Assembly (NCBI GenBank): GCA_002205965.3
Contig: NADL03000061.1
Location: 248,001-312,000, forward strand
DNA length: 64,000 nt
DNA from: Kappaphycus alvarezii
Lineage: Eukaryota > Rhodophyta > Florideophyceae > Gigartinales > Solieriaceae
Direction: 5' to 3'
Shown here: piece after piece, positions 10,060 to 64,000 of the stretch
Numbering within the stretch: the stretch's first letter is position 1
Layout of the letters: each line of letters begins with the position of its first letter
Translations under genes and position numbers: made by a program
The notes under the pieces: model-generated
The model's input: only the letters and a program-made list of their open reading frames with translations
What the model was told of the DNA's origin: nothing
Databases searched by the model: none

Positions 10060-11349
10060 ATTAAGACTCACTCAACACCCCTTCCAGCAGACAGCTGGCG
10101 TTATTCTGGACGAGCCTCGCCGCGTGACGAGCGAACAGTGTTTGCCTTGCGTGAGCAATCTGAACAGCCACCCGTGCAGTAATGCCGGTCGCAACCCGTT
10201 TCGCAAGGTCCCGAGCAAAAGGGAACACGTTTGGGTGTTTTACTGTTAGAAGATATTTCCGACCTATCCCATGGTTTTCCAGACAACCGCAATCGACTCA
10301 AAAAGGGTATACCTACAGCGTAATGGGGAAGGAACTACGCTTCCTAAAATGCTACCTTCAGGGCAAAAGTGTAAGGGCAATGAAGCGATGCCCAGGGCCT
10401 TTTGAACGTATCAATTCGGCAAAGCGAGTGTCCTTGCCAAAGCAGGCATGGTTAAGGGGCTTGAGTGGGCATCGCGCCGGGGAGGGAAGGCGGGCGGGGG
10501 TCAATGGGTGGATGACAGCTACGTCGAAAAAGTCTGTCCCCACGTTCTATCTAAGTGCGCTGATGTCCGGGTGAACTGCGTGGCCGCGTTGTGGCGGCTC
10601 GAGGACAGGTTGTCGGGCAGATTTGGAGAGATCCGCAGAAAGCAAACCTGTCAGCGAGTCATACCGCCACCCGCGAGTGGATCCATAGGCACAGCACAGC
10701 GTGTGGTCACCAAATTGATCCATGAGGGTCGTGCATCCCTCTTTTTGGCATTTCGAAGCTGGAAGAAACAGCGGAACCCTGCAATAGAACTGCAACCACG
10801 TCTTGTAATTGCGGTCCTAGATGTAGGTACCCAACCCCGGAGCCGGTTGGCATGACAGTTAGTCCTTGCAACCCTCCACTGATAACGAGGCTCGGAATGC
10901 AACAGTCCTCTCATCCCCCTACGGCATGGCATCAAAGGCCTTTTCCTCAACTGTGCGGACGAGTTGCCCTTGCCTAAACCTCTGCACTGAGTCGATAGAC
11001 GTGAAATGGACCACCTTCTCGGGTGCTAATTGTGTCTTCCAGTCGTCGTGCGCTCGAACTGCCGATTTTTATGAATGAAGAGCAGTGTCCGGTAGCACAG
11101 CCAGACGTGCAGACGCCACTGGCAATATTAGCGACTGCTGGTAACGAGCGTCCACCATGCTCAGAAACGACATAGCGACGGCATTTCTGTCGGCAGCAGT
11201 TGTATCATGCGCTGTCTCGAGAACCTGTTGAACGCGTTATGTGCGTCCACGGACATTAGAACATACTCGCCTTCGTCGCCTTGGCGCTCAACCAGTGTCC
11301 GTACATCGTGCACAATGAAATCCTGTCCGCAGGGCACTCCATTGGCCAC
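10060..11349 (-). pseudogene. Non-LTR (LINE) reverse transcriptase, broken 3' half
   Basis: At the upstream end (11,349-11,161) the frame contains EYVLMSVDAHNAFNRFSRQ, which fits reverse transcriptase motif A with its catalytic Asp followed by the NAFN signature. Downstream, 10,795-10,547 encodes a C-terminal Cys/His segment (KEGCTTLMDQFGDHTLCC) of the kind found after the RT in many algal and protist LINE-like proteins. This continues in another frame into FFDVAVIHPLTPARL near 10,500. The middle RT motifs (B, and the C motif with its paired Asp) are missing or out of frame, and a TACAGT-rich insertion lies just upstream. The element cannot be active. The 3' part is shared with 7,690-8,640 and 42,580-42,740. 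Confidence 0.65.
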
Positions 11350-11414
11350 TGCATACTGTACTGTGCCGTGTGGACTGCGCCGTGTAGTGGAATACGCTCC
11401 CTAACCCTACATGG

Positions 11415-11500
11415 GATGGAGGAGATGCAGTACAGTAGGGGGAGATACAGTACAGTATCTCCCCAGCTCAGCAGTATTGGACGGGGGAGATACAGTACAG
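11415..11500 (+). repeat. GGGGGAGATACAGTACAGT repeat with perfect inverted repeat
   Basis: Three near-identical GGAGAT(A/G)CAGTACAGT units occur in this stretch. The middle one forms a perfect 10-bp inverted repeat, GGGGAGATAC at 11439-11448 and GTATCTCCCC at 11455-11464, around a 6-base centre. Confidence 0.75.
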
Positions 11501-11699
11501 TGAGCTCGCACAGTCCACATGGCCCCGCACTCAAAGTGCGACACGGGCGTACAAATAGGCAAATGTACCTCCCTAAACACCAATAACTGCACCGCCCTAC
11601 CTTCTTGCCACGGTCACCTCCACCCTAACCAACTCCAGCCTGCCAGCTCCTCAGCCACTGCGGCACGCCCTCAACCCTCCCCGCCTGCCCTTTGAGAGG

Positions 11700-11924
11700 T
11701 GATAACGTGCTTCAAAACAGCTGGTATACTCGGGCGGGCTCCCTTTGGCATGTCGTTGCAACCACTCTCCCGTGGCGTTCTTCACTTGATCTTCTGTTTC
11801 ACTCCCCTCTCTTCCTAACATCTTCCCCTTCGTTGTCTACATCATTCGTTACGCACTTGGACTCAACTTCTTGTTATCCATTCCCTGTCTTTCATCCAGC
11901 TCCCGGCTTCCTTCCCGGCCTATC
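11700..11924 (+). promoter_or_regulatory. Pyrimidine-rich 5' leader before the H3-tail-like ORF
   Basis: The 200 bases ahead of the ATG at 11925 are strongly C/T-rich on the plus strand, unlike the sequence before and after. The ATG sits in a favourable context, with A at -3 and G at +4. This is consistent with a real transcribed leader. No TATA box is evident. Confidence 0.35.
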
Positions 11925-12122
11925 ATGGCCCGCACTAAGCAGAAGGCAATCTTGAGCACGGGGGGTAGGGACCCTCGTAAGGCCATCTCTCCAAAGGCGG
12001 CCCGAGTCTCTCATCTGGATGCCGGTGTATGGTCTCGTCTCGAAATATTAGGACTTCGGGGCCGCCAGGATATCGAGAAGATTGTCTACCGTAGCAGAGA
12101 CCCCCTAAAATACGTCGTCTAA
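11925..12122 (+). CDS. 65-aa protein with histone H3 tail-like N-terminus
   Basis: The protein starts MARTKQKAILSTGGRDPRKA and continues ISPKAARVS. Aligned without gaps to the canonical histone H3 tail, 18 of the first 28 residues after Met are the same: ARTKQ, A7, STGG (10-13), PRK (16-18), KAAR (23-26) and S28. It keeps the equivalents of K4, S10, K18 and K23 but lacks K9 (Leu), K14 (Arg) and K27 (Val). Residues 30-65 (to KYVV and TAA at 12120-12122) do not follow the H3 globular core, apart from a vague resemblance around DIEKIVYRSRDPL. The start codon is in good context after a pyrimidine-rich leader. It could be a mimic of the H3 tail in a mobile element, a strongly diverged H3 variant, or the surviving 5' end of an H3 pseudogene. 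Splicing to the downstream frames at 12,150 is possible. Confidence 0.6.
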   Translation: MARTKQKAILSTGGRDPRKAISPKAARVSHLDAGVWSRLEILGLRGRQDIEKIVYRSRDPLKYVV

Positions 12123-12149
12123 TGTGCTGTGTTTCCCCGTCCAATCGCG

Positions 12150-13375
12150 ATGAACGAAGAAGAGCACATTGCGCTCTTGGTCTCCATATTACGGCTCTTT
12201 TGCGCCACTACGCGGGCCGGGAATTCAGGAAGACGGATGCGAATCTGATTGGTCTTACGAGTCCTTGAAAGATCATGAGCCTTACTCCTCCGTCCCGCCC
12301 TCCGCCTTGTGCGTACGTTCGGATTATTTGCACAGCGGTGACAATGTATACTGCGCTATCGACGACGACACTGGCGAGGAGCGTACGGTTCTCTTGTACA
12401 CGACGGCGTTCGATGGATTTTCCGAGGAAAGCCATCCGGCCGTGAAAGGAGATCAACTTGTCTTAGGCAGACAAGACCGCCTTCAGACCATTGACAACAT
12501 ACATCAGTGGTGCAAAAGGTACCCCGAGCGGAAACTTCTGGTATCTTACACGCTTTATGGATGCTCCCTTGCGGATCCCACCCAGCACCGCTTTTTTTTC
12601 TCTCCAGCCAGTCCAATTTAGAGACTAGACAGACGGTTGCATTGGTGCCTCCCTTGGTAACGCCCTAACTGAGGACGACGAGTCTACCAAGGCCCTTCAT
12701 TGTGTGTCCGTCTGCCGTAAGAGGGCCGTCCGTAATCATAATAACCTCTTTAGGGGCGGCCTCATTCGAAAAATGAGGGACGGCCAGAAGCTACCCCCGT
12801 CACGTTGCTTCCTGTTACAGAACCGGCTTCCACCTAATCCCCCGGTTGAGTACGTCCTAAGTATACCACAAGGGATATACCTAGCAACCCTCATCGGATC
12901 GGACGGCGACAACCACTGCGTCTTTATCAATACGATTAGTCGCCGACTACTAAATCCGAAAGAAGAATTCTCGTTGGCGTTCTCTGCCGACGCTCTGAAG
13001 GAATGCGTGGGGCACATATCTGAATTCCACACCGTCCACGGAGTAAGGCGGGTCGTGCTCCTCGGTGGGGCTCCAGCAAACGCCTACGCCACCGTAAGGG
13101 GCATTATAGGACTAAAAGGAAACGAGAGGGGAAGAAGAAGGTTGAAGCGCAATCAAGCTCCCGTGGCGCCGGCTGACTCGCCCACCTTGCGGTCCAGGCC
13201 CGAGCAGCCAGCCTCTGAATGCCCCCATCTATTTATCTGCTTCCTTCTCCTACATATGATTTCAATTCCTTCCTCCTTCACTCGTCCTTGGTGTTGTGAA
13301 CATTTATTCACACTCCTGACTAATAAAAGCCACCAAATGGGCTATGTTCCTAGGTTAATCTTGCAGGGGGAATAG
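12150..13375 (+). pseudogene. Broken gene with a cysteine-protease-like segment
   Basis: Three coding-like frames follow one another. The first is ATG at 12150 to about 12248 (starts MNEEEHIALLVSILRLF). The second is 12,230-12,621, an acidic segment ending near a T8 run. The third is 12,625-13,375. The third frame holds GIYLATLIGSDGDNHCVFIN followed by a dipeptide-rich LNPKEEF stretch and a conserved-looking Cys about 20 residues later. Such a His-Cys-Val core is typical of papain- or Ulp1-like peptidase domains carried by some transposable elements, but I cannot identify the catalytic Cys, so the assignment is tentative. The C-terminus is basic (KGNERGRRRLKRN). A pyrimidine run ending in CAG at about 12,605 could be a 3' splice site. 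Its position directly behind the H3-tail-like ORF, on the same strand, suggests one element or one transcript. Confidence 0.35.
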
Positions 13376-14059
13376 TGTAATGCATGCGGAGAATCTTGTT
13401 CGGTTGGACCTACGTGTGTACCATAGCGGCCATTTGGAGTTAGAGATGATAAGGATGTGCAATGTAATGGCTGATAACGATGAGTATATAGTACAATGAT
13501 GGCGTCTCGTAGTCGTTTAAGTTGGTTGTCAATAATGGGGTTGTTTCGGGGTAGTTCTATGGTCCTGGTAGCGGTTCTGTTGGGCGTTTTCGTAGGGACT
13601 GGGTGATTTGGGAACCAGTGTAGGAACCAGTGTAAGGCGAGGCGACGTGGATGCCCCTTGACGATGGGGAGGTGAGAATGATGGGAATGTTCCGATTTGG
13701 GTTACAGCGGGTGTGTGTCGGGGTGAGAAGCGACGTTGGCGGCGGAATAGGGGGCTGTTACGGGTATTCCAGATGGTGGTGTGGAGATGGGATCCATGAT
13801 GTTCTGACTGCTGCTAGATGGTGGAGGAGAGCAATGTCCCTGTCGCGGCCTTCAGTGTTGTCGTGAGGAGGGGGGAGCAACGGGTCGTATGGTGAGGATA
13901 GGCGACGGATGTTTGCGCTGCCCATCCTTTGGAGGAGGGCAGGGAGTGTTTCTTAGTAGAACTGACATACCCTTTGATGCAGTACTTACTGCAGACTTTT
14001 GCTGAAAAATTTAGTTCGTCATATAATGTTGGACATACATATTTATATTGTTCCATTCC
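13376..14059. other. No gene; G/T-biased plus strand
   Basis: No motif or long frame is visible. From 13,500 to 13,900 the plus strand is unusually G- and T-rich, with a short direct repeat (GGGAACCAGTGTA then GGAACCAGTGTA). Confidence 0.5.
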
Positions 14060-14300
14060 GAGCATGACATTATAACTCATACTATACAATACAGTGTGAA
14101 GAAAAAAGGGCAGTCTGTCCCATTTTGTTAAGTCCGGAAAAGAGCCATTTCATTCCGGTGACTCACAAAAACGCAAAGATATAAAATTGTGACTCATGAT
14201 TTCACACAATATCATTTTAGGTACTGTCCTCACATCTCCCATGGCCTTCCTCAGGAAGCCGTTCTGTGTCTACAGTACGTTGCGGTACACCCAACGGAAG
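14060..14300 (+). repeat. Dispersed repeat R1, copy b (partial)
   Basis: This aligns with 23,340-23,520 through the shared blocks TTAAGTCCG..AAAGAGCC, GTGACTCACAAAAACGCAAA, TTGTGACTCA.GATTT.ACACAAT and CACTGTCCTCAC/TACTGTCCTCAC. It lacks the outer parts of the longer copies. Confidence 0.65.
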
Positions 14301-14302
14301 TC

Positions 14303-14363
14303 TTGTACTGTACTACACTGTACTGTACTATACTGTACTGTACTATACTGTACTGTACTGTAT
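14303..14363 (+). repeat. TACTGTAC microsatellite
   Basis: About 60 bp consist of TACTG/TAC variants, giving overlapping TACTGTACTATACTG palindromic units. Shorter clusters of the same words occur at many points in the window (for example 2,518, 9,540, 14,670, 23,530 and 40,510). Confidence 0.85.
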
Positions 14364-15198
14364 CGAGGATGCTCGGAAAAGGGGGACAATGATAGGTTAC
14401 GCTTGGCCCAAGGAAGGAAAGAAATAACGGAACTTTCAAACATTTCAACGCAAGAGTGGAATAGTGACCTCTAAAGGCTACACGCCCTCCTACCCCTTAT
14501 GCACGGTGGACCAACTTCTTCGTTCCTGCCTTGAACCCCCCTACAATTGTTCGAAAATACAAGTCGAAGACATAACTCTCTCAATTCACCTGACTCAGTA
14601 TTATAGAAATGTGTGTTTTCAGAGCAACTCCTAACGTTTGTTTACCACCATCACAAGTTTACTGTTCAGTACAGTACAGTACTGTAGGAACCGATTCCAC
14701 CAAACAATACAGTATGTGATGAAAAACGTTTCCGTGAAACAACAATTTGTCGAAGGGTGGATGGAATTCCACCAAAGTCAAATTCAGTCTATTACAACCA
14801 CGATCAACGTATGCAGTATGCAATTTATTTTTCCATTCCCGTTTTGATCTCAAGTTGTGATTAATTTCAAAATTTAAGTTGTGTACTATTGGTAGGTGAC
14901 AAACCTCCTGTGTGATAGTCCAAAACTTTTTTGTAAGAAAGCCGTAATTACCTGTACAGTATCCGTTGTACGGCCGTCATGCCGAAAATATTAACACCTT
15001 TTTTCCACATAAGTTCGTTGCAACAGTGCACCGTGTCCTAGAGCTCAATTTCACCCGCAGTGAACTTCAGCCAAGTTATCTTCTCTGTGCCAGACAATCG
15101 ACAGGACTTTGAGCCAATCGGTAACCCACAACACCAAATTTCACCCTCCTTCCCTATTAGGAGGACGATAACATCCACCGCAACCCATTTGTGTTAAG
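14364..15198. other. No gene seen
   Basis: Short frames only, with one further ACAGTACAGTACTGTA cluster near 14,670. The last 100 bases lead into the ATG at 15199 without a clear TATA element. Confidence 0.45.
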
Positions 15199-15757
15199 AT
15201 GGCTAAGAAGATGCGGGCAGGCCCGCCACCGCGACAGTCTCAAACTAGCCAGTCGAGAAGGAAGAAGGACACAGGTAAAAAACAGACGCCACCGGCTGCT
15301 GCGGCCGGATCGTCGGCCATCGTTGCCACAGATATCTCACGATGGCATCCTAAGACTCGCGATATACCTGTTTTAGTAGAAGTTTTGCCACCTATCCCTA
15401 CTCGGCAGAAGAAGGCCAAGAAGAAACTCACCGTGCTCTACGTCTCCGAATCAGATGACCGCTTCCGAACTCGATATCCGATTCACAAGAACAGTCGGGT
15501 GCAAAAGGGAAGCCGAAGAAATCACAAAAAGGGTAACCAATAAGCGCCCTTCGAAGAGGAGTCGAGAAAAAATTATGGATCTCATCACATCCCCGAATAA
15601 GACCGTGAAAAGAATGAAGCGTGATAATTCCAGACGCGGTCCTGATGAAGAACCGAACCTTGAGTTGTTTCTGCGAGACAAGGATTTCGATGGAAAGCGA
15701 CAGTCCATTAATATGAAGGAATTGGCTTTGATTCAGAATGCCCAGCAACCAAGCTGA
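15199..15757 (+). CDS. Lysine/arginine-rich hypothetical protein, split by one frame change
   Basis: ATG at 15199 opens a 114-codon frame that is very basic (MAKKMRAGPPPR, QSRRKKDTGKKQTPP, then KKAKKKLTVLYVSESDD). From ATG 15455 a second frame runs to TGA at 15757 with similarly basic content (KRVTNKRPSKRSREK and TVKRMKRD). The coding character moves from the first frame to the second near 15,450. This suggests one protein of about 185 residues with a single indel or a small frame jump. The clusters of Lys/Arg would suit nuclear import or nucleic acid binding. No domain is recognised. It lies 1.2 kb upstream of the helicase-related region on the same strand and might be its N-terminal part or a partner gene. 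Confidence 0.4.
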
Positions 15758-16430
15758 ATAATGACGCATCCGTTTTGTCCTAAATCTTGCCCTTGGATCA
15801 CGCGTCGATCAGCAAGACACATTCATAAATCTCTGATTTGATTCAGTGTCTGTAAAATCATATCACGGCACCAGCTCTCCGAATAACTCATCTGGTTCAG
15901 TTACCTGGAGGAAAATATTCATTTATCTATTCTCCTTATTCCTTTGCTTTCCAATGATCACTTCTCATTGGTTCTCATCCGTGGTCTACGAAATGCATTG
16001 CCTTCTCTTCGGTGCAGTGTTTGGACGTACGCTGTAAAGCTTTAAATTGAGCACTTCGATTCGCTAGGCGAGAAATCTCGACATTCGGCGAACTACGTCG
16101 AGCGTACTAGTAATACGTGTTTGTGTATCGGAGGAGACCAATTTCAGACGAAACTGTTTCCGGACATCATCCCAGATAACTTTGTCTATCAGCGGTGAGA
16201 GTGCGTAGGCTCGCAACAACCGTCGATCAACCTCTGTGAGCCACTGACAGCTTTGTTCACAAGTCTGAGCTTGGAAACGCCATTATTCCCCCCCTCCCGT
16301 TGAGAACCAATCTTGCAATTTGAAAAGTTTTGGAATGATATCTTGCATATGGTAAGTGCGAAAAGGAGGTAATTATTGGGCGAAAAGATCATGATCGAGC
16401 AAGATTATTTGCCAGCGTTCTTTCGCCTAC
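15758..16430. other. No gene seen
   Basis: A short hydrophobic frame (15,846-16,037) is present but has no supporting signal. Nothing else is recognisable. Confidence 0.4.
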
Positions 16431-16534
16431 AGCCCTCCGATGTTGAAAAAACGGAGGGAGACCGGTACGTGGTGGCGGATATCTAATGATGGGGAACTGG
16501 ATGGTGGATCTATCTGTCCTAAACGTATCAAGGG

Positions 16535-18642
16535 ATGTCTTCACTGCTCACGAGAGAGAACCGAGACTCAAGTCACTGGTGCAGGAGGATGTTATGTCTC
16601 GTTTTTCATCCACATTCAAGAGAGGTGGGATCATGGAAGGTGCTGGTTAGCACAGATCTGAACTTCTCCGCAGGCGCATTTCAGCTGGTTGTGGATCTTT
16701 GCTTCATCCTTCCCCATACGGTAACGCCCAGAACAATCTAAGAGTATGAGATACTATTCACACTTTGGTCTGGCTACTTTGCGACTAGACCTCCTATTCA
16801 ACTCTTATGCGACCAGAGAGCTGAAATTACGCCCTTTATCCGGCGTACTGACGAAATTGTTTCGCGTATTCTCAAGTTTCCCTAGGGTCATTGAGAAGGG
16901 ATCTTCTATAAGATGTTTTTCTCCAAGAGGAAAGGTCCTAATGCAGGAGATCTCGGTACATGTCATGTGTATAGCTGCATGTGCTTTGAGATGGCTTTCA
17001 CCTGACGACTGTGCTAATCGTGTTACAAATTTCCTCCAATGCCTGCGGGAAGTACGTCTAGGTACAGAGGATGTAGTACGTGACCCTTTCTGCCCTGGTC
17101 AATTCCAACATCTCGGTGCACATACTCCCGACATTGAAGCACCCAGTCAATACCACTACATGACTGAGGTTTGGACTTGGCTTTTCATGTAATGACGAAG
17201 GCCGGGAAAATGTTCGCGAAAGAAGAACTGAGAGCTCTTCGGATGAAAAACCGATACATACAGAAGCTTTACCTCCAATTTATTCGTTCCAATTCATCCC
17301 TCAGACTATATTCAAGAGCCTACACTTCTTCTTCCTATCTAGAATCGAGGCTAATATTTCACTACACACGAGGGAGGCGGAGGCTTCAGAATGTCTCATT
17401 GCCATTTACGGTGTTGCAAACAAGCTATGGGGATCAGTTCACGGAGAGTCTGACAATATTCCAGTCATGGAAGCATCTCAGGTTACACCCGCTCAACCCT
17501 CCCCCTTCAATCTGGTACTTCATCTGCTGGAGATCCACGGTCACTGTTTGGGACATCTACCGCGCTCGGGCAGGATAGTGCTCAAGGGGGCAATACGCAA
17601 GTACGTGGTTGTCCCTTAATTCCGAAGTCGGAAAGGTTCCTGTATGAGTCGGCGCTCGACATGGAGAGGGATCAGCCGTAACTGGTTTTTGGTTTCAACA
17701 GTTCTTAGATGTACTTAGAATCCCACTTCTCCTACTTAATTTATATGGTACTCAATTCTGAAGGAGTTTTTTACAATCGCAACTTCTGTTTGGAAGTCGA
17801 CCAGGAAATTGATTAGAACACCCAAAAGATGCTTGACGTATGTCTCTTACAACTGTTCAATGTTCGGCGACTTGGCATTTCATCGAAAATACCGACCCGT
17901 GATATGCACTAATGTATGGTAATGGCAACAGAAGTTATAGCAAAAGGCTGCATGGAACTACGCAAAGAGGGGCTTCTCGGTATTCCACCAACGTACGGCC
18001 GCAGACCTGCAAAAGCACTCCCGTGTAGGTCCCCTCCGGATAGGGAGGGATGGCATTCTGATATCATTGTGTGGGCCTTGTGGTGAGCTCCATATTCCAA
18101 GGTACGTTCATTCCAAAGTTTGGAGCAGAACGGTTGGAAATTATGAGACAATAGGAATTGGTCCTGTGGTGATTCCATTGTCATTGTTAAAGGATAGTAA
18201 GGTGTTACCCGGTGATATGTCGTTGCTATCGTTTTCCGTCACGTGCGAGAGTGAATGTACAAGGAACTCTACGTTCCCTTCATCGGATTCGACAACTATA
18301 GGTCCAGCTCGTTTTACTTCAGGCAGTATGGTGGAGTTGCGTCTATAAATGGAAGAACGTCTGATAGGTTCCCTATACGCACTTGTCCACGGAAAGCCCT
18401 ATTTGCTACCCTCTCGACAAAGAGGTAGTTGGGCCCCGACCCGCCACGAATTGCAGCTGTTGTTTTGGGAGGACTCCGGAAACAATCGCCATTTCTTTAC
18501 TCCATTCCAAGATCTTGGTGCTAATGGCGGCGTTGTTAAGATAAATGAAGTCTGGAATTGCCGGCACATATGTAATATTCATTGGAATATATTGGGCTAC
18601 ATTAATATACCGACACTCCGTTATGGTTTCTCGGATCCGTAG
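16535..18642 (+). pseudogene. Coding-like fragments upstream of the helicase domain
   Basis: Successive plus-strand frames at 16535-16741, 16746-17192, 17171-17578 and 18067-18642 have protein-like composition, though no family is recognisable. The last is 192 codons with a single internal TAA at 18346-18348. They run directly into the superfamily 1 helicase motifs and share strand and disruption pattern with them. I therefore read them as the N-terminal half of the same large gene, broken by several indels and stops or by unrecognised introns. I cannot assign a domain, and 17,580-18,060 shows no clear coding frame. Confidence 0.3.
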
Positions 18643-18799
18643 TGGGCTCGGCAGCTAATGCATAGTGATTTTAACTTTCTGCTTACGGCGTATGCAATGA
18701 CTAAATCCGGTCTGAATAAAGTGGCCCGCAGCCTTGCCGTTCTACAGTTCAGCCTTACAATGTGAACCAAATGGACCAACTCCAAAAACTATTGAATGA

Positions 18800-20450
18800 C
18801 ACAAAACTGCAAGTCTCGAGTGAATGAGTCTCAGTTGGGAGTTCTCGTAGCATGGGATTTCATGCTGCATATAATTTGCTGTTTTCCAGTGGATGTATTG
18901 AATCCTACCTCGACTATTGTGTGCAGCTAGGTCCCCAAAAGCAAGGTTGTGCAGTCGGTAATACTTTGTAAAGGCCCTCCCGGTAATGGGAAGAGTCATG
19001 TCTCTAATCTTCTCATCCGTCTGACAGTTGAGAAGGTGATGGTGTCTGGTAACTACCCGAATTTACGCAGTCAGAGCTACCAACAGGACGCGTGCTCATT
19101 CTCAGTGTTAGCAATGCTGCAATGGATAACTTATTCTTGAAACACCTCCGATTTCTAGGCTCTGACGTGAGCTCGTCGGTAAAACCAGTCCGCTTTGGAA
19201 AAAACTCAAATGTGGAAGAAGTCGTGAAATGCGATTTGTCAAAGATGTGTACATCTACAGAAGCCATACCGTTGTTTCCGCACCAAGGTTTCCGCACCAA
19301 GGTCATACTTCTTTCACAACGGAACCCATCAACATATTGGACAAGCACTCCGTGATTTTCGGAACCATTGGGTCAGTTCTTGTGCAACAATTCGATGGTG
19401 TTCTCCCTTTCGATATATTCATTGTTGATGAAGCCGCAATGGGAGATGAAACTGAAGCAGTCACCTGTTTGTCCGGGGTACAGTCTTTGACGGGGGTTAC
19501 TCGCTTTGGTACTTCAGTTGTATTTTTTGGGGACCCATTTCAAAAGACTCCTTTCCTGGCGCATTACCTGAGACAGTGGTTGCAGCATCTACATAAACGT
19601 GGCCATTTTATTGGAGAGAGGAATGAATAAGACATATGCTGCTGCCACAACATACGCAGCGGCTGAGTCCCGTGCTCATCATTCCGAAGGAGGTTTTGAA
19701 AGTACAGACTTGTATCCAGGTACGTCCTTTTTCCTAAATGAACAAATGAGAAGTGTTGGGCCTATTGGATCGCTGGTAAGTGAGCGTTTTTTACGGAGGG
19801 AGGGTTAAGAATGGTCGAAGCCCAACAAATACTGCGTGGATACGCTTTAATAACGCCAATCATCTTTATTTTCTGGGCAAGAAGTTTTGAAGGGTCAGCG
19901 TTATTGATACAAAGGAGGCTTACGGACGGCATTGAAACACGTAACGACAAGCTAGGTTACTCCAGCAAGTATGAGGCTAAATTGATCGTATCCATGATTC
20001 ATGATTGGAAGGCAAAGATGAGGACCCTTCAGATTTCTCACACCCTACATAAAGCAGTTGGAAGAAGTTTCGGACTTTCTCCGACGGAAAGGTTTTGCAC
20101 AAGGCTGTTACTGTTATGACTTTTGGCTCGTGTCAGGGCTCGCAGCTCGATGTTGTTTTCATATCACTGGTAAGTCTACATTCACATGTAGCTTTATGTC
20201 CACAATTACTATCACCGGAACTGAAGCAAACTTTCTCGACGACAAGGGGGCGGCCTGTGTCGCTCCATCTCGAGCGAAAGAGGTTTGCTTTCTTACCGGA
20301 AAGATTGACATCTTCGGCAAACATTCAAGCGTTTGGAAGAACATTCTCAGCTGTATTAAGGAGAAAGTAGTCTCGAATAACCGCAACATAGTGTATTGGT
20401 CGATTCGTGATACTAGCAATGGGAAGCAGTCAAAGATCCAGACAAGATGA
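18800..20450 (+). pseudogene. UPF1/DNA2-like superfamily 1 helicase, disrupted
   Basis: The SF1 motifs occur in the right order but in changing frames. There is a Q-motif-like RVNESQLGVLV (about 18,815-18,850) and Walker A GPPGNGKSH (18973-18999). Motif Ia is RVLILSVSNAAMDNL (about 19,089-19,133), motif II is DEAA (19427-19438) and motif III is GDPFQKTPF (about 19,529). Motif IV is FFLNEQMRS (about 19,730), and EAKLIV follows near 19,975. Motif V is TFGSCQGSQLDVVF (about 20,119-20,160) and motif VI is VAPSRAK (20259-20279). DEAA and the QG-x-x-x-D pattern fit the UPF1/NAM7/DNA2 group of ATP-dependent helicases acting on RNA or DNA. A stop near 19,628 and frame changes at about 19,290, 19,590, 19,810 and 20,200 block translation. 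A short GT-AG intron explains one change, and a 14-bp tandem duplication another. Host gene, viral or mobile origin cannot be told apart. Confidence 0.65.
19049..19086 (+). other. Candidate 38-nt GT-AG intron in the helicase gene
   Basis: Removing bases 19049-19086 (begins GTAACTACC, ends CCAACAG) joins VMVSG to RVLILSVSNAAMDNL in frame. That gives the usual spacing of about 20 residues between motifs I and Ia. Without the removal, the two motifs lie in different frames. The intron would be very short. An unrelated small insertion is the alternative. Confidence 0.45.
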
Positions 20451-42074: not shown

Positions 42075-42850
42075 AGTGCTGATAAGAATGAAAATGGGAT
42101 GTCGAGTTCGATGTCGAGTTCGATACCTCCCAAGGTTTACTAAACATACGCACGCTGGCGTATTAAATAGAAAACGATGTGCAGTGGAGAGTGAGGAAGT
42201 TGCGATTGGAACACAGTCTACAGCTCGCGATCTAATGATTTCCAAGCTGTGTTGGCTGCAGCGGTCCTGTGTGTTTCCCTCTAGCATCACTAGTTGATGA
42301 TTTCCCTCCACTTCAGCTGTAGTGTGCTATGCAGCCGGAAGTGGCTGCATATATCCTGCGTGTTGCTAGCTCATCGCTCTGGTGGACGTCTTTCATCCAC
42401 TACATCTTGGTGGCATAGCCACCACAGTTACTTTGGACATCACCCAAACCCTCTCCCTATGGATATCCCTCCGCGCCACGAACGAGCCCAGATCTCATAC
42501 CAGATTCTCCGATTCTGTGCTCCCTGGTGTTTGGTTATGTACAGTACTTGTTCCGCTCAACCCCGCCGCACATAGGGAAAGGTTTTGGTGTTTTACTGTT
42601 GGAAGATATGTCCGATCTATCCCATAGTTTCCCAGGCAACCACAATCGACCAAAAAGGTATGCAGACACAGTAATGGGGAACGAACCAAGCTCCTTAAAA
42701 GGCTACCTTAAGGTCGCACATTGACTTACCACCTGCCAACGCTTATGAGAAGGTCATGCTGAATCTCCGAAAACAGCGTGGTTGTAGATCTTTATGGGTT
42801 GTTCAATGTTGCACAGAAGCGTGCGGGGGGTATTCATAAATTAACTACTG
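42075..42850. other. Repeat-derived sequence, no gene
   Basis: This begins with a 12-bp tandem duplication (ATGTCGAGTTCG twice). Positions 42,580-42,740 match 10,225-10,375 closely (GGTGTTTTACTGTTGGAAGA, TCCGA.CTATCCCAT, ACAATCGAC, GTAATGGGGAA.GAAC), a third copy of the LINE 3' region. No open frame is supported. Confidence 0.5.
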
Positions 42851-46065: not shown

Positions 46066-47174
46066 TGCGTTGATCTGAATATTCTCCTTCCCTGCGGCAT
46101 TTGGACACAGACCGTTTCCCCTTCTTTGTCAATGAAAGTGAACGGCCCTTCCCATTGCTTGCTTTCATTCCGGTATATGAGTACCTGCGATCCTGGGAAC
46201 ATCTTGTCCAAGTCTGGGCGCTCTCTACCTTTAGGTCCAACGTGCCTCAACCCAAGCTGTACCCTATTCATCGCATGAATTCGTCGCACTTCCTTCATTG
46301 CTTTGTCGATAGCAATTGCCCTTTCCTGTTGGCTTGGGGTTGGTGTTTTCCGGAGGGGTTTTGGTATTGCTCCGAAGACCAGCAGTGTTGGGCATAGACC
46401 TTCAGGTCCTACTGTATCATTCACAGCTTTAACTCCATTCGCAATACATCGTCATCCGATATTCTCTTTGTGTTAGACTTGATCTTCATGAAAGCAGATC
46501 GGAGTGGACTGTGGTACCGTTACATGGCTCATTGTTTGAGGAGACTCAATAGGTGCCTCGAGCACTTCAATCCCTTCAGACTGCGCGCAAGATTTGAATT
46601 CCTCTGATATAAAATTGCTCCCTTGATCAACGCGGAGGTAATCAGGTGGTCCGAGGTAAACTAGCGACCAGCATCGTAGTAACGCCTTCCATACGATTTC
46701 TGATTTCATATTGCGCAGGATGCTCGCCGCTTGAAAATGCGTCGATTCATCCACAAGTGCAGTACGCGAAATAGAGCCAATATACATAATGTCAACAGCC
46801 AATATGTGATTAAACTTGGTTTCCTCCGTTCCTACTGTTAGTTTGAAGCGACGTGGTTTGGATGCGTGTTTAGCACAAGTTTGACATTCCTTGACTATTT
46901 GCTCCAGTTCGCTACGTACATCTGGATCATGGGGCCGAGCTCGTTTAAGTACTGAAGCCAAGGCGCGCGCAGATGGTGTCCAAATGAGCGATGCAGCTTC
47001 CGCAGTTCCGATTCTGAGTATAGGACCTGGTCTACCGGGTTCCACCTCAACCAAAGTAAATCGTTCTCTACCGTAAGATCGTGTCTTCTCCCGTTCATCA
47101 GCAAGGCATTCTTTTGAATTGAGATTTCTGCTCCAATTTTTCTCATGTCTCTCAGGCTCAGCGCAGTAGTGCAT
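46062..47174 (-). CDS. Copia integrase (element at 44-49.6 kb), broken
   Basis: The zinc-binding half is split between frames (HRSFGH in the upstream frame, ECQTCAKH here). The catalytic core has HILAVDIMYIGSI (first Asp) and LRVDQGSNFISEEF (second Asp), then ESPQTMSHV. At the third acidic position two bases appear to be missing near 46,520, after which RYHSPLRSAFMKIKS continues in another frame. The C-terminal part (46,424-46,062) shows LVFGAIPKPLRKTP and SQVLIYRNESKQWEGPF, the DNA-binding tail. The enzyme would join element cDNA to host DNA but is inactive here. Confidence 0.65.
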
Positions 47175-47779
47175 TCGTGATCAACAATGTGGAACCACAC
47201 ATTTGCTGTGGTCTGCAGTCCCTCAATTGGTATCCTGACCAAAGCTTGTCCCAGCGTAGTCCTTATGCCTCCGAATCCCTGTATTTTCTTACGTCTTGAC
47301 GCATCAATATGTGGCGTCTCCAGAGCAGCAGGGCATAAATGTTCACGACAGTACGCTTTGTATTGGGACAGGCTCATGACACTGGATCTGTTAGCGCCAG
47401 TATCGCACATTACCCCTTTAAATTCGGACTGGTAATCCTCATCACGGGACAGTTCTTCGTTCATTCTTTCCATTTCATGTGCCTTCCTCATTCCAAACCC
47501 ATGCATAAACGTACGATTGGCTAACTTCCCTTCCAATTCGTTGTTAACAACATCAAGTCCATAGTTGACGCTGTCCGTGGCGCTGTCATCATCGCTGTCC
47601 GAGTCACTGTTATCTCCATCTCCATCTGACAAGTAATCACAGACGTTAACTACTTCATCCAGGGACAGGTATACACTTCCATGGCTCTTACGCTTAAGGC
47701 GATTTAGGGCTGCCTTAATTTCATGGAGGGTGCTTGTCTCTTGCAAAGTGGTCCTTACCACAGACATAACATCCATCAA
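46895..47779 (-). CDS. Copia protease and pre-integrase region (44-49.6 kb element)
   Basis: The 294-codon frame holds FKGVMCDTGANRSSVMSLSQ. The DTGA is the aspartic protease active site. It is preceded by a long Asp/Ser-rich linker (GDGDNSDSDSDDDSATDS). Downstream are QGFGGIRTTLGQA and WFHIVDHECTTALSLRDMRK, the protease flap and C-terminal part, and then SELRKLHRSFGH, which begins the integrase zinc site. The frame joins gag by a shift near 47,735. Confidence 0.7.
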   Translation of the reverse strand: MMDVMSVVRTTLQETSTLHEIKAALNRLKRKSHGSVYLSLDEVVNVCDYLSDGDGDNSDSDSDDDSATDSVNYGLDVVNNELEGKLANRTFMHGFGMRKAHEMERMNEELSRDEDYQSEFKGVMCDTGANRSSVMSLSQYKAYCREHLCPAALETPHIDASRRKKIQGFGGIRTTLGQALVRIPIEGLQTTANVWFHIVDHECTTALSLRDMRKIGAEISIQKNALLMNGRRHDLTVENDLLWLRWNPVDQVLYSESELRKLHRSFGHHLRAPWLQYLNELGPMIQMYVANWSK

Positions 47780-53846: not shown

Positions 53847-55225
53847 ATGGAGGACAGTAAGAAGGTGTATAAGTTTTTGGGGAAGTCAGGAGAGGACTAC
53901 CATCTTGGGCGGCAAGGACAGAAGCGGCTTTAGAAGCGAAGGAAGTCCTTGAGGTGATTGAATCAGACGTGGTCTCGGATGAGATGAGTGCTGGTATGAA
54001 AAAAAGGTGGCGACGGCGCGTGCTTTGTTGATACAGGGCCTGGGTGATCGTCCTCTGAGGCTTTGCTTGAGTGCAAAGAACAATCCGTACAAGATGTGGA
54101 TGCGCTTGAAGGATAGATATGCTGTATCCAATACAGCGACAAAGGTTCAACTTCAAGCAAAGTTGTCTGGTATGCGCTACAAAGGCAGCCTGTACAGGAT
54201 TATATCGACTACTTTGAGGAAGTGTTCAATCGCCTTGCGGCGATGAACAGCAAGGTAGACGAGGAGATGCAGGTGGCGACATTGCTTGCTTCTTTTGGTA
54301 ACAAGAAGCAGTCGCCATTCGGAACCATCATTGCCTCATTGCAAACATCTAAGACCAAACTGGATTGGGAAACCGCCACAGCTACTCTCTTGCAGGAGTA
54401 CGAGGACCAGTTGCAAGGAGTCGGGAGTGCCAAGTTCAGTAGAGGTAGTGACAATGGACTTGCCCTTGCTGCTGCTGGAAGTGATGCTAAGCGTGTTGGT
54501 AAGAGCTCGGCCTCTAACAAGGCCGAGAGGCGCAGATGCTACAACTGCGGCAAGATTGGCCATCTTGCAGTAAACTGTCAGAAGAAGAGACACAAGTCCC
54601 ACCGCAAAGTGTCGTTTGCAGAAGACTATGGCCATATTTCTGAAGAAGATAGTGCGAACCAAGCACGTCTTCTATTGGCACGCTTCAACGGGCATGCCAA
54701 AATCAAGCAAGAGACTAAAGCAGCCAACGCCTCGTCTAGTGGTGAGAAAGAACGCCTGAGGGACGTGTGCTTGTTTGACAGTGGAGCCTCAGACCACATG
54801 GTATGGTGCCAAGACTGGCTGCATGATCTCGAGGAGATTCGTCCGCGCCCAGTTATCCTGGGCGACGGAAGCAGAGTTTTTGCTAATCAGAAAGGTACGG
54901 TATACTTCCAGACGCGCATTGGATCACCGGGTGACTGGTATTATCGTACATTGGTTTTGCCGGGAGTGCTGCACGTCCCAGAGTTACGATGTAACCTTCT
55001 CTCATGCTCCAAGCTCTGTGCTAGTGGCTACCATGTGCGTGTTGTCCGTACTGGATGCAGTGGAACATTTAATGGCTTGCTCCACTTCCAGGGCCGACTG
55101 AATCAAGGGGTTTATGAGATTTCGGTAGGTTTGTTGGACCTACAGCACAAGCTGCGATTGGATGTACGGCAGCCGGTAATCGCAATCGAGATGAAGATCG
55201 TTCCGGAGAGGACGATTTTAGTGGA
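53847..55225 (+). CDS. Copia gag and protease
   Basis: The first ATG after the primer site is at 53847 (MEDSKKVYKFLGKSGEDYHL). A one-base loss near 53,905 moves the coding sense to a frame with EAKEVLEVIESDVVSDEM, and another change near 54,190 leads into the long frame from 54,222. Gag ends in a perfect zinc knuckle, CYNCGKIGHLAVNC (54537-54578, C-X2-C-X4-H-X4-C), for RNA binding. The aspartic protease site is LFDSGASDHMV (DSGA from 54778), followed by VLPGVLHVPELRCNLLS, the conserved C-terminal protease block. The protein would form the particle and cut the polyprotein. Codon sense is lost again near 55,225 at the start of the integrase. Confidence 0.85.
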
Positions 55226-56560
55226 ATGCATTTTTCCAGTCGTGGACTCAAGCTTTGGCATGAGAGGCTCGGTCATGCTAACGTTGAAACCATCAAGAAA
55301 ATGCAGCGTCATGGAATTGTGTCAGGATTAGACTTCAGTACTATGAAGACAAAGTCCAATTCATGCATGGGTTGCATGAAAGGTAAGCAGACCAAGCAGC
55401 GCCTACGCCGTAACAACCACAGATCGAAGGAGCCCTGTGCAGTTGTGCACTCCGATGTTTGCGGTCCGATGTCAGTGCGCTCGTTTGCTGGCTCTCGATA
55501 CTTTGTTTCCTTCGTGGACGAGTACTCAGGCTACATAGTGGTTGTGCCAATCAAGTTGAAGTCAGATGTCTATGCGGAATTCAAGATCTATCAAGCATGG
55601 CTGGAACGACAGTTTAATTGCAGCATCAAGCGGTTACATACTGACGGAGGTGGAGAGTACATGGCAATGCATAACTATCTTACTGAATGCGGAATCGAGC
55701 ATAGTGTAACGCCGCCATACTCTCCAAATTTGAACGGTATAGCTGAACGTTCAAACAGGACTCTCGTTGAGAGTGCTCGAGCGATGCTCGAGCACGCCGG
55801 ACTCCCCCGGTATTTTTGGGCAGAAGCAGTTGTTCATGCTGCACATATCAGGAACTACTTCTGTAGTCCGAGGGATCACGCAGTGAGCTCGTATGAGTTG
55901 TTGACTGGTACGAAACCTAATGTGTCACACTTGCGTGTTTTTGGGTGTCAAGGGTGGCACCACATCCCTAAAGAACTTCGGAAGAAGCTGGACTCGAAGT
56001 CCGAGGAGGGGCTTGTGATCGGCTGTTTTGATAACAGCCAATACAAAATCTGGATACCATCGAGGAGGACGGCCGTCGTGGCCAGGGATGTCACTGTGTT
56101 CGAAGACAAGTTCCCCGCCAGAGAATCTCCTGGCAGTGAATTTAACGTTTATGATGGACCCATACTCTCTGACGAAGAAATCAACGAATCACCTGCCAGT
56201 GGCGGGCAGCCGCCGTCAACAACACCCGTGCCAACGGCAGTACCTATCCAGCCGGTATTACAAGTTGGTGGGACTGAAGGTTCATCAGAATGGATAAACC
56301 CAGAAGGGGTCAGTGGCAATGATGGTATTGGTATAACACCAGAGGCTAATTCGGAGATGTTGACCTACATTCCAGCCCGGGAGCTGGATCAAGCGCAGGA
56401 TTCTGACGCGGGAGTAGACGAAGCTGATGCAGATGACGTTGCGGTAACTCAAGATGGTAACGGTTCTGGGTCTCGATTCCCCAGACGTGATCGTAGGCCC
56501 CCGGACTACTATGAACCAGGAGCAACGAACTCTTCCCGAGCGTTCACAGTAAGTGAGTCA
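55226..56560 (+). CDS. Copia integrase
   Basis: The frame is open from 55226 without stops. The N-terminal zinc site is WHERLGHANVE with CMGCMKGKQ (H-X4-H and C-X2-C). The catalytic triad is visible in VVHSDVCGPM, LHTDGGGEYM and GIAERSNRTL (D, D, E). After the core come EHAGLPRYFWAEAVVHAAHI and RVFGCQGWHHIP, usual Copia landmarks, then a variable Ser/Pro/Glu-rich linker up to the RT. It joins the cDNA to chromosomal DNA. The integrase by itself looks intact. Confidence 0.88.
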
Positions 56561-57374
56561 CCCGAGCCTACATCAGTAAGTGATGCGCTAAGCCGGCCAG
56601 ACTCCGTTGCATGGAAGGAGGCAATTGAATCTGAGCTTGACTCTTTGAGGAAGCACGGGACCTGGACGATTGTGGACAAGCCTAATGGTATCAAACCAAT
56701 CGCAACTCGCTTTGTGTTCGTGCGCAAAACGAAACGACAAAGGACAAGTAGTCAGACACAAGGCAAGACTTGTAGCCAAAGGTTTTCTGCAGGGTAATGT
56801 TCATCAGACTTTCGCGCCAGTTGTGGACTTCAACACTGTTCGGACTTGTCTCGCTTTGGCCGTCCAAAGGGGGTACTATGTACAGCAGATGGACGTGCGG
56901 AGCGCGTTTCTCCATGGAGAAATTGATGAGGATATCTACGTGACGGGACCTAAGGGTCTCAAGCTCTGTGACGGTGACAAGGTCATGAAGCTTAATCGAG
57001 GTTTGTATGGCCTCAAACAGGCTGGACGCCTGTGGTACGAGAAATGGGGATTCGTAATGGATAAGATTGGGTTTACTGCACTACTTGCTGATACTTGTGT
57101 GTACCGTCGTGGTAGGATATGGATCTTACTTTATGTGGACGACATTATCGTAATGGGTCTGGATAAGAAGGAGGTGATTCAGGTCAAGAAGGAGCTCACC
57201 AAGTACTTCGACGTGAAGGATCTGGGCAGCCTGAGTTCTTTTTTGGGTGTGTCGTTTCATTGGGATGCAAAGGGGGCATGGATGACACAGGAGCACTACG
57301 TGCTGCAGACACTAGAACGGTTTGGGATGTCAACATGTAAGTCAGTTTCGACCCCATTTGTCAAGGTGCGATGA
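56561..57374 (+). CDS. Copia reverse transcriptase
   Basis: The RT begins with SRPDSVAWKEAIESELDSLR and GTWTIVDKPNGIKPI in the integrase frame. A one-base change near 56,735 shifts to the frame with RHKARLVAKGFLQG, QMDVRSAFLHGEIDEDIYV (motif A), LYGLKQAGRLWYEKW and the catalytic YVDDIIV (57132-57143). DLGSLSSFLGVSF marks the thumb/connection. It ends in STPFVKVR with TGA at 57374 after another frame change near 57,365. All catalytic Asp residues are present. Confidence 0.88.
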
Positions 57375-58113
57375 GTGACTTTGAAGAACCAAGTGAGGCT
57401 GTCAACCAAACGACTTATCAGGAAATACTCGGATGCCTACTATTCATTGCGACGCGGACGAGGCCCGATATCAGCGCAGCAGTTTCTCTTCTTTGCCGAT
57501 TTGCGGCAAACCCTTTCAAGTCTCATTTGACGGCACTCAAGCGAGTACTAAGGTATCTACGTGGTACCTCTGATTTCGCTCTGCGGCTGTATGGAGATAG
57601 TGACGAAGTTCTCTCGGCCTTTTGCGATGCAGATTGGGCAGGGGATAGAAGCGATCGCCGCTCCACCACTGGAGTCCTTCTCAAGTTTGGAAAGACTTCG
57701 GTATGCTGGCGTACATTAAAGCAAGGCTCAGTAGCTCTTTCTACCACCGAGGCCGAGTATGTGGCAATGAGCGAGGAACGAAGCTCATAATTTGGCTTCG
57801 TGATCTGTTGCGCCAACTGGATTGCCATCAAAGGATCCCTACAGCACTTCATGAAGACAACCAAGGAGCTCTAGTGTGGAGTGCTGATGGTGTTAGACAT
57901 GCAAAGCATGTGGCGATTCGAATGAACTTCGTTAAGGAGCAGGTCGATTTTGGGAACATCGAGCCAGTGTACTGTCGCACTGAAGATATGACTGCCGATA
58001 TCCTCACCAAGCCTCTTCTGCGTTTGGCTTTCGAGAAACATAGAGACGGACTTGGAGTAAAGCAGCTTCCGGACAAATATCCTCATGATGCAAGAGGGGG
58101 CGTTGATATCTAA
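57371..58113 (+). CDS. Copia RNase H and C-terminus
   Basis: The frame from 57371 has YQEILGCLLFIATRTRPDIS and LKRVLRYLRGTSDFALRLYG, then the RNase H core: FCDADWAGDRSDRRSTTGVL (first Asp), ALSTTEAEYVAMSE (Glu), and after a one-base change near 57,775 LHEDNQGALVWS (Asp) and EDMTADILTKPLL (final Asp region). The stop at 58,111-58,113 lies inside the start of the 3' LTR, as usual for Copia. Confidence 0.85.
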
Positions 58114-61220: not shown

Positions 61221-62160
61221 ATGGAAACTTCGGGCATTACTGTAGAGTCTCTGGCACAAGCTGTAAGCGAACTTCAACGCCAGCTGTCAGAGGCTCATAA
61301 CCAGATCTCCGCACAACAGAACCAGCTCAATAACGCTGCTCGCAAGGTGGGAGCTCTCGAGAATGAGCTTTCTCTCGTCAGGATCAATGCCGGTAGCTCA
61401 AATGGTCAAAACGAAACCAAGGACGCCCCTAAGAAGAATAAGCCGGGATCATTCAGCGGAAAAGGGTCCGTCGGGAGCTGGTGCGTGCAGATGCAGAATT
61501 ATCTTGGTGAAGCAGATGGGCAAGCTACCATGAACATTGCACTAAGCTATCTCTCTGGAAATGCCCATGAGTGGTGGATGGTCCATTCCAAGAGCGCCGC
61601 GGGGCAGGAGATTCAAACATGGAAGGAACTGAAGACTGCCTTCTCAATCGCTTCGAGACGTTAAACAAGGAAAAAATCGCCCGAGACAAGCTGGCTCGCT
61701 GGAAACAAGTTAAAGACGTTACTGCGTTCAATGAAGATTTTAACAAAATATTGTTGGATATACCAGACATAGGAGTCAAAGATCAGATTGATCGCTATTC
61801 ACGCGGCCTGAAACCGTACATTTGGAAAGCCTTATGCACGAAAGAATACTCTAAGCTTTCTGATTTAATGGCAGATGCGGAAAGAATCGAAGCTGCTTAC
61901 AGGCGTTCAGGGCCGTTAGGTAACAACAAATCGAGTACAAAATCGCTGAACGGAAGTTCAAGTACTGGAAATAGTGCTCCGTGCCCATGGAAATTGGGAA
62001 CGTGGAAATGAAACCGGGTATACAGTCCTCAAATGTTAACTTACCGAAATTGGATCAAGCAGAACGTGAGAGATGCATACGTGAAGGCCTCTGCTTGAGA
62101 TGCAGACAGAGAGGGCACATTGCAAAAAACTGCCCAAAAGCCCGAAGGAACTGACTGAAG
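61221..62160 (+). CDS. Ty3/Gypsy gag
   Basis: ATG at 61221 opens [20 protein letters not shown] with a Gln/Glu-rich coiled coil (residues 8-55), then a basic [13 protein letters not shown] and the capsid segment with [18 protein letters not shown] frame change near 61,645 leads to [20 protein letters not shown], the conserved part of Gypsy capsids, then [16 protein letters not shown]. After another change a zinc knuckle [14 protein letters not shown] (62092-62133) is present. The protein would assemble the particle and bind RNA. It lacks only frame continuity. Confidence 0.8.
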
Positions 62161-64000
62161 GTCCTCAATCAGTTCTGGATGACAGAAATCTTATTGTTTC
62201 AACAATAAGATCCCAGGAAGCATTTAGGGGAACACCAACCCCAACTTTCCAACGAAATCATAGAGGACTTCTTATTGTTAAAGGAGTCATTTCCAATGGA
62301 CCAGCAAAAATTCTCATCGACCCAGGTGGTGAGATCAATTTCCTCAGTGAATTGTTCTGCGATTACCATAAGATTAAAACAAGAGAATCAGCAGAGCTTG
62401 CCGAAATGGCGAACGGTGCTAACCAGAAGTTGAAAGAAACAGCCGGTCCGGCAATCGTCCAAATAAAGAACTACACAGAACCACTGTACTTCGCCGTGAG
62501 CCCCCTCAAGAGATATGATGCAATCCTAGGAAAGGAATGGTGTGGAGCCCATAGAGCAATTATCGACTCTTCAAGCAATCAAGTTTCTTTCAACTACAAG
62601 GGTGAAAAGTACTCCGTCACTGCCAATGAAATGACAAAGCACCCTTTCGTTTCTGCAAACTCAGTACTTACTGATTTGGAGAAAAAATGTAGCACTTATG
62701 CTGTGCTAATTCGACCACTAGACTCAAATCCAAATGTTCCAGATTCTTACCCAGAAGATATTCAAGGTGTACTGAAAAAGTATACAGACGTTTTCCCGGA
62801 AAAACTTCCGAAGGGCCTTCCTCCGAAGCGAAAGTATGATTTCAAGATCGAATTGGAAAAAGATGCTAAGCCACAGAAAAAGGGTCTCTACAGACTTTCA
62901 GGAAAAGAAATGATGGAGCTTCGTAAACAACTAGATGATCTACTAGAGAGTGAATTCATTAGACCAAGCAAAAGCCCCTGGGGAGCGCCAATACTCTTTG
63001 TAACGAAAAAGGACAGCGGTTTGCGTATGTGTGTGGATTACAGAGCACTTAATCGGCTTACTGTAAAAAACAGCTACCCCCTGCCGCGCATCGATGATAT
63101 CTTTGATCGACTTAAGGGAGCCAGGTACTTCTCGAAAATAGATCTGAGGATGGGTTACCATCAGATCAGACTGGAGGAATCTTCAATCCCTCTCACAGCG
63201 TTTCGAACCAGATACGGACATTTTGAATTTCTCGTACTACCTTTTGGATTGACCAACGCACCAGCAACTTTTATGAATCTCATGAACGACATATTCAAAG
63301 ATGTCCTGGATGTATTCGTTATCGTTTATTTAGATGACATTCTCATCTTCAGTAAGACATGGAAAGAACATTTAGAACACATTGATGTAGTACTAGAGAT
63401 TAGGAAGGAGAATCTGTTCGCAAAATTGTCAAAATGTGTCTTCGGTGTTAAAGAAGTCGAGTATCTTGGACATGTAATCTGTCAAGAGGGAATTGCTGTG
63501 GATCCCAACAAGATAAAGGCAGTCATGGAATGGCCCTCACCAAAGAACAAGCAACAGCTTCAGTCATTCTTAGGACTCGTCAACTATTACAGAAGATTCA
63601 TAAGAGGATGCTCATTGTTGCTAAACCTCTTACAGAGCTGACGAAGAACGTTTCATTTCTGTGGACAGCTACTCAGGACAAATCATTCCAGACCTTGAAG
63701 AAATCGTTATGCAGTGCCCCAGTCCTTCGAACTTTTGACTCTGAACTTCCAATATATGTCACTACAGATGCCTCTCAGTACGCAATTGGAGCTGTGTTGG
63801 AACAGGGGGATCCAAAATCCAGAAGACCAGTTGCCTTTGCGTCTAGGACTTTGAATGATGCTGAGCAAAATTATGCCGCTCATGAGAGAGAGCTCTTGGC
63901 CATTGTAGAGTGCTTGAAATGGTGGAGAGCATACCTACACGGAAACTTTTTCACAGTTCATTCTGATCACTACCCTTTAAGATACCTCGAGACCCAGGAC
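62100..64000 (+). CDS. Ty3/Gypsy protease, reverse transcriptase and RNase H (runs off window)
   Basis: The frame 62100-63641 is open for 513 codons. The protease region shows [17 protein letters not shown], where the expected D-S/T-G-A is DPGG (62320-62331), and [13 protein letters not shown] as its C-terminal part. The RT follows with [56 protein letters not shown] (motif A), [16 protein letters not shown] (motif B) and the catalytic [12 protein letters not shown] (63327-63338). [17 protein letters not shown] closes the RT. A frame change near 63,615 leads into [10 protein letters not shown] and the RNase H start, [17 protein letters not shown], still open at 64,000. RT before any integrase marks it as Ty3/Gypsy. 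Integrase and the 3' LTR lie beyond the window. Confidence 0.88.

Follow-up and report, generated by a model that had tools for sequence, protein, structure and literature searches.

A Ty3/gypsy retrotransposon family of Kappaphycus alvarezii encodes a protein with a histone H3 tail mimic, a possible methyltransferase decoy

What kind of gene begins like histone H3 and then abandons it? The question is raised by a 65-residue open reading frame (ORF) at positions 11925..12122 of the forward strand in a 64,000-nucleotide stretch of the genome of the red alga Kappaphycus alvarezii (contig NADL03000061.1, positions 248,001 to 312,000; the whole stretch is called the window below). Its product begins MARTKQKAILSTGGRDPRKAISPKAARVS and reads in full MARTKQKAILSTGGRDPRKAISPKAARVSHLDAGVWSRLEILGLRGRQDIEKIVYRSRDPLKYVV. 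After the initial Met, residues 1-28 (11925..12011) can be laid on the H3 tail without a gap, with 18 of the 28 residues identical; K4, S10, K18 and K23 are retained, and K9, K14 and K27 are replaced by Leu, Arg and Val, respectively. An original prediction, made from the letters alone, had described this exact spacing, the same kept and replaced residues and the absence of an H3 core behind them, and our analysis bears out all three: the ORF (P0001) has no Pfam match at E<=5, the histone family PF00125 included, and no histone core follows the tail. The protein is thus not an H3, since it has the tail and lacks the histone-fold core. We find that a longer protein, carried by a family of long terminal repeat (LTR) retrotransposons, starts with this ORF and is truncated here, and propose that the tail may act as a decoy for histone methyltransferases.

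A chance match to the H3 tail was considered and excluded. Both strands of the window together have 2,345 ATGs, and the runner-up among them shares 7 of 28 residues with H3; in 20 shuffled windows the top scores ranged from 6 to 9. When the ORF was compared with PDB sequences using phmmer, the best 60 of 126 rows were all H3 or H3-type chains (best E-value 4.8e-4, query residues 1-33); a protein database search with P0001 gave nothing informative. A profile performed better against PDB sequences, with a best E-value of 8.7e-11 and H3-type chains in the 60 best of 138 rows, and its match ended at about H3 residue 56-59 (chain numbering).

The 65 residues comprise the tail mimic and the first 36 or so residues behind it, and the rest of the protein is detectable past their end in two other frames (12154-12621 and 12629-13180). 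Elsewhere in the genome (336 Mb in 884 contigs) the frame is uninterrupted for 359 residues in locus L030 and for 421 in L111. The copy number, which the original prediction had proposed to count, proved high: the 65-residue query has at least 128 matches at E<=1e-3, with 150 of 288 candidates scored. Sequence was fetched for 90 of these 128: 8.5 kb for the 20 best, about 2 kb for ten that were mostly chosen for long open frames, and about 0.5 kb for sixty that were mostly chosen because the match started at residue 1. We labelled the groups among them A (27 copies), A2 (12), B (21), C (19), D (6), E (1) and F (4). These counts include both L009 and L010, which are one locus in two contigs, as well as L016, which was read in the wrong register, and several copies with damaged tails, L029, L036 and L037 among them. 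Four copies of subfamily C (L059, L065, L070 and L092) have a common internal deletion (...EERNQT[S/P]LTMFTISLC...) and a well-preserved H3 tail; they are possibly an amplified non-autonomous derivative.

The carrier is a Ty3/gypsy retrotransposon family, in which the tail gene lies antisense between pol and the 3' LTR wherever LTRs were found. We examined LTRs in groups A and A2 only, where 8 of the 20 loci with long flanks have LTR pairs of more than 200 bp, 78-91% identical within pairs and ending in TG...CA. The span from LTR to LTR is 6.0-7.1 kb in L017, L018, L020, L022 and L026, and 2.9-3.5 kb in L011, L012 and L019. By eye, a 5-bp target-site duplication is exact in L018 (GTTTG), and also in L017 (GAAAC) if the TG at the LTR start is taken as mutated; L011 and L020 each show it with a single mismatch, as does L022 if an LTR end is assumed, and no clear one was seen in L012, L019 or L026. 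The strand opposite the tail gene holds broken pieces of aspartic protease, reverse transcriptase, RNase H and integrase, which follow one another in that order (by tblastn), and the ORF pieces score above the Pfam cut-off for Asp_protease, RVT_1, RT_RNaseH, Integrase_H2C2 and rve. A further piece was labelled gag by its position, with no Pfam match. In the five near-full-length copies (L017, L018, L020, L022 and L026), the tail gene is convergent with gag-pol, on the opposite strand, between integrase and the 3' LTR. Opposite-strand integrase or pol was also found downstream of the tail gene in B, D and E copies and in C copy L034; C copy L135, downstream of L111, has gag pieces only, and F copy L133 has no integrase, pol or gag pieces within 3.5 kb. 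The LTRs, target-site duplications and pol thus support the suggestion that the mimic belongs to a mobile element.

How faithfully is the tail kept? Most of its positions are held in the large majority of the 90 copies: A1 in 76, R2 in 71, T3 in 80, K4 in 72 (R in 6), Q5 in 85 and A7 in 72, then S10 in 81, T11 in 79, G12 in 71, G13 in 76, P16 in 74 and R17 in 73, and finally K23 in 83, A24 in 78, A25 in 79 and R26 in 75. The stretch (I/L)A(T/A)KAAR at 20-26 is strongly conserved, and identity to the H3 tail reaches 23 of 28 residues. The two silencing lysines behave differently from their neighbours. Position 9 is Leu in 71 copies, Met in 7 and Lys in 6, the latter all of subfamily D, where K9 is retained and R8 is replaced by A or T; position 4 in the same subfamily is R in five of six copies and Q in the sixth. 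Position 27 is never Lys: it is Val in 56 copies, Met in 13, Ile in 8, Phe in 5, Ala in 5, Thr in 2 and Asp in 1. Val is found in 20 of 27 A copies, 10 of 12 A2 copies and all 19 C copies, whereas B has 13 Met and 6 Ile among its 21 copies, and D has two Ile and four Val among six.

Could the tail be an artefact of searching with a tail? We searched the genome with the body alone (residues 30-359 of L030), which gave at least 126 matches with 121 of 866 candidates scored, and took the places that were outside the tail list and whose match started at query residue 1-20 (32 of 33, C524:389972 being left out). Such places are expected to be poorer in tails than average, good tails being already in the tail list. 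The tail is nevertheless present in 26 of the 32 (at least 13 of 28 residues, where 30 shuffles of each copy gave no more than 10), and the artefact is rejected. Among these 26, position 27 is never Lys and is Ile, Val or Met in 21 (7 each), and position 9 is Leu in 11, Lys in 10, Glu in 3, Gln in 1 and Asn in 1.

We then compared six groups with one another using 29 copies of our choice, F being left out. Tail identity between groups is.51-.76 and body identity.26-.47, the latter a lower bound because a single frame was read and L026, L049 and a few others shift frame within the body. Agreement at fourfold sites in the tail is.10-.38, that is, synonymous sites are saturated. The conservation of tail identity over saturated fourfold sites indicates, at the level of sequence comparison, that the tail is held by amino-acid selection between subfamilies.

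The full protein, of about 420 residues, consists of the H3-tail mimic (1-30), an unassigned domain of about 180 residues, a probable papain-like Cys/His/Asp domain and a basic C-terminus. The predicted catalytic columns come in the order C245, H337 and D350, conserved in 15/18, 14/18 and 16/18 of the rows that have a letter there, among 34. Structural matches of this domain are papain-like and include deubiquitinases and staphopain. In fold it may resemble C39, staphopain, viral tegument-like deubiquitinases and AvrPphB, all papain-like cysteine peptidases, but it has no sequence family match in Pfam, and its activity is a prediction. Pfam searches did not find PF00125 among 34 aligned pieces; their sole match was PF23517, seen in two of the pieces at E 0.015. 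The N-terminal domain (37-220) has no convincing structural match among those listed, and a first AF2 model gave no fold.

A distant homologue carries the same arrangement. In a profile search of 5.8 billion proteins, where the 7,998 candidates sharing most words were scored, the only match at E<=0.01 among these was P0003, a 304-residue protein from an ENA record (E 1.9e-36), which is 30% identical to L030 over 287 residues and is not necessarily from another species. It begins MARTRQTEQKSTVG, its N-terminus being MARTRQTEQKSTVGEHPRKQLALKSARVTR, and it has R4 and keeps K9. A second protein, P0002, is related to the C-terminal part only, and scans of viral contigs and genome contigs confirmed no relative.

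What would an LTR retrotransposon do with an H3 tail? The most constant change is the loss of K27, usually together with K9 to Leu or Met, and this pattern suggests inhibition of methyltransferases no less than evasion of silencers. Because K27 is mostly V, M or I, K9 mostly L or M, and the flanking residues are kept, we propose that the family encodes an accessory protein whose tail mimic serves as a decoy for H3K9 and H3K27 methyltransferases, a reading to which we give a probability of about 0.5. Once Met is removed, the tail would be displayed as a free, unstructured H3-like N-terminus; it would then offer these enzymes a substrate that cannot be methylated, on the model of K-to-M oncohistones and EZHIP, and the element would be silenced less strongly. 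What the tail captures may then become a target of the papain-like domain. The best candidate target would be the host PRC2: the genome has two E(z)-type preSET_CXC matches of equal score (C536:228726-228818 and C710:37041-37133), which judging by sequence are probably genes for the catalytic subunit of PRC2, or else haplotype copies. The accessible parts of earlier reports offer precedents: Met or Ile at the equivalent EZHIP position inhibits PRC2, whereas Lys, Arg or Glu there does not (PMC6513997), Clr4 is trapped by H3K9M (PMC5030085), and H3K27me3 marks about half the repeats of the red alga C. merolae (PMC5405695). In a fuller version, which we advance only tentatively, the protein would be a Ty3/gypsy anti-silencing factor in which a full-length H3 N-tail decoy, hydrophobic at both silencing lysines, is joined to a papain-like protease, and the H3K9/K27 methylation complexes caught by the tail would be put out of action by that protease.

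Several observations weigh against a decoy. The inhibitor precedents, as far as the accessible texts go, cover Met, Ile and norleucine and mention neither Val nor Leu, which are the commonest residues here at 27 and 9, respectively; for this reason subfamilies A, A2 and C may lack inhibitory activity. Subfamily D and P0003 retain K9, as do 10 of the 26 tailed copies selected by body. Replacement is not confined to the silencing lysines, since T6, K14 and Q19 vary as well. The majority of copies read are decayed, our choice of 90 among 128 places favours good tails and matches beginning at residue 1, and among body-selected copies L106, L113 and L128 have no tail and L123, L125 and L130 have a partial or frameshifted one. 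On the host side, a search for Pre-SET (SUV39-type) domains was empty, but its controls were empty too, and a host H3K9 methyltransferase is unproven. Decoy binding and inhibition are themselves predictions from sequence.

The best surviving alternative, though a somewhat unlikely one in our judgement, is recruitment, an idea put forward by the original prediction. H3K4 tail binders include PHD fingers, COMPASS and LSD1, which SNAG domains engage in this way. A free A1-R2-T3-K4 could engage such readers, writers or erasers and tether the protein to active chromatin, with the changed K9 and K27 avoiding heterochromatin proteins, and the high counts of A1, R2, T3, K4 and Q5 given above (71 to 85 of 90) agree with it. 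However, position 4 is R in most of subfamily D and in P0003, and therefore K4 reading is not the one constant function. Moreover, conservation extends to R26, well past the usual footprint of K4 readers, and recruitment leaves the mostly hydrophobic position 27 unexplained.

A second alternative, which we consider improbable, treats the tail as a substrate or pseudosubstrate that the protein carries for its own papain-like domain. That domain would clip H3 tails or strip ubiquitin-like modifiers from complexes that bind them. The conserved Cys, His and Asp columns, the structural matches to deubiquitinases and staphopain, and the strong conservation of residues 20-26 are all in its favour. 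Clipping of H3 by a cysteine protease, cathepsin L, is known, and according to the accessible part of the same source Plasmodium H3 is clipped between A21 and S22, in a way reminiscent of mouse embryonic stem cells (PMC12269491).

The tail might also be a functionless relic kept by the shared ancestry of copies, a very improbable reading, to which the decay of most copies and the 78-91% identity of LTR pairs lend something. Against this, subfamilies agree in amino acids despite saturated synonymous sites, and more so in the tail than in the body (with the body figure a lower bound); the tail of P0003 agrees at 30% overall identity, and the body-only control speaks against ascertainment.

Finally, the original prediction had named a diverged H3 or an H3 pseudogene as its conservative reading and proposed a comparison with the host's own H3 genes at the DNA level. 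A histone family search of the genome gave 26 matches, and the five best, which we read, are all H3. L136, L137 and L138 are intact, with a canonical tail including K9 and K27; in L139 and L140 the core is intact and the frame is shifted where the tail begins. Compared with L136-L138, the tails of ten element copies have 13-23 of 28 residues in common, and each comparison finds agreement at 0-8 of its 10-16 fourfold sites (44 of 140 in total for L136), so that there is no close match at synonymous sites and, to judge by them, no sign of recent capture from host H3. A host H3 gene that was captured recently, has diverged or has shifted frame has next to no chance of being the answer: the window copy does match H3 at 18 of 28 residues, but the body bears no relation to H3 and is common to many dispersed copies, the three intact host genes are canonical and synonymously distant, and P0003 has the same start and body.

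The copy in the window is itself a remnant (11498..13292, forward strand, by blastn of the window against L017, L018, L020 and L022). It runs from the last 20 bp or so of the 3' LTR through the tail gene and stops before integrase, having lost the flanking LTR and pol. Behind the 65-residue ORF, a second piece of the protein in a different frame (12154..12621, forward strand) contains YSSVPPSA...VYCAIDDDTGEERTVLLYT, and a third with the papain-like domain (12629..13180, forward strand) carries TDGCIGASLGNAL and GDNHCVFIN, the Asp column being Asn here. The sole tblastn match of gag-pol pieces near this copy, 29 residues long, falls within an inverted fragment of the element's LTR (14315..14447, reverse strand), where a TGTAC tandem array is also found (14304-14362). 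Positions 10425-18924 are 99.6% identical throughout to C642:109839-118338, 8.5 kb in all, which is either one locus in two assembly copies (an uncollapsed haplotype) or a recent segmental duplication; independent insertions were rejected, since the identity runs across the whole 8.5 kb. Other mobile elements lie further along the window. A Copia-type element occupies 54117-58113 (forward strand) in several frames, with Pfam gag, zinc knuckle and integrase in 54117-56797 and a copia-like reading on to 58113 by eye. A gypsy-type reverse transcriptase (62085-63641, forward strand) and an integrase-like piece under the Pfam cut-off (46473-47180, reverse strand) have no tail gene seen alongside. 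Another dispersed repeat, at 10229-10338 and 42575-42686, also flanks L022 outside its LTR.

How does this protein compare with known systems? In plants, aORF-3R genes have the same position and orientation and encode conserved accessory proteins, some of them nuclear, whose role is described as unknown (PMC7264820). The tail gene shares what defines them, lying opposite to gag-pol in the interval between integrase and the 3' LTR and being conserved across copies. The likeness drawn here is one of position. The accessible part of that report describes none of the proteins as clearly similar to other proteins and does not mention histones. VANC21 of VANDAL21 is likewise a transposon protein that counters host silencing; it belongs to a DNA transposon and promotes DNA hypomethylation at its own sequences, with histone mimicry unmentioned in the accessible part of the source (PMC8616336).

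EZHIP and the oncohistones, judging by what is accessible on these systems, invite comparison with the tail itself. EZHIP/CXorf67 (CATACOMB), the mammalian PRC2 inhibitor with a K27M-like peptide, is also a non-histone protein with an H3-like stretch and a hydrophobic residue for K27 beside arginine; subfamily B mostly reads KAARMS. In EZHIP, however, a mammalian gene, the stretch spans 12-14 residues, whereas the retrotransposon protein has residues 1-28 at a true N-terminus, K9 also replaced in most subfamilies and a probable papain-like domain. Oncohistones H3K27M/I and H3K9M have the same kind of substitution at the same lysines, but they are nucleosomal, whereas the retrotransposon protein has no histone fold, and Leu9 and Val27 have no oncohistone counterpart in the cited work. 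To our knowledge, histone mimicry is otherwise known only from viruses, cellular pathogens and EZHIP. We found no precedent for an H3-tail mimic in a retrotransposon in the literature searched by title and abstract start, a search that left subscription journals mostly outside. Antisense accessory ORFs, transposon anti-silencing proteins and histone mimics are each already known; what appears new, within the literature so searched, is their combination in one retrotransposon protein.

If the proposed decoy is real, the family would provide a natural, independently evolved inhibitor of the K-to-M type, parallel to oncohistones and EZHIP, and its natural variants (L, M, I or V at K9/K27, and A8 with K9) could be used to probe what a methyltransferase decoy requires. 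It would also suggest what an antisense accessory ORF does in LTR retrotransposons; for this class of ORF, the accessible part of PMC7264820 describes the functions as unknown. Transposons would then counter chromatin silencing through histone mimicry, and Polycomb would be tied to transposon control in the host lineage.
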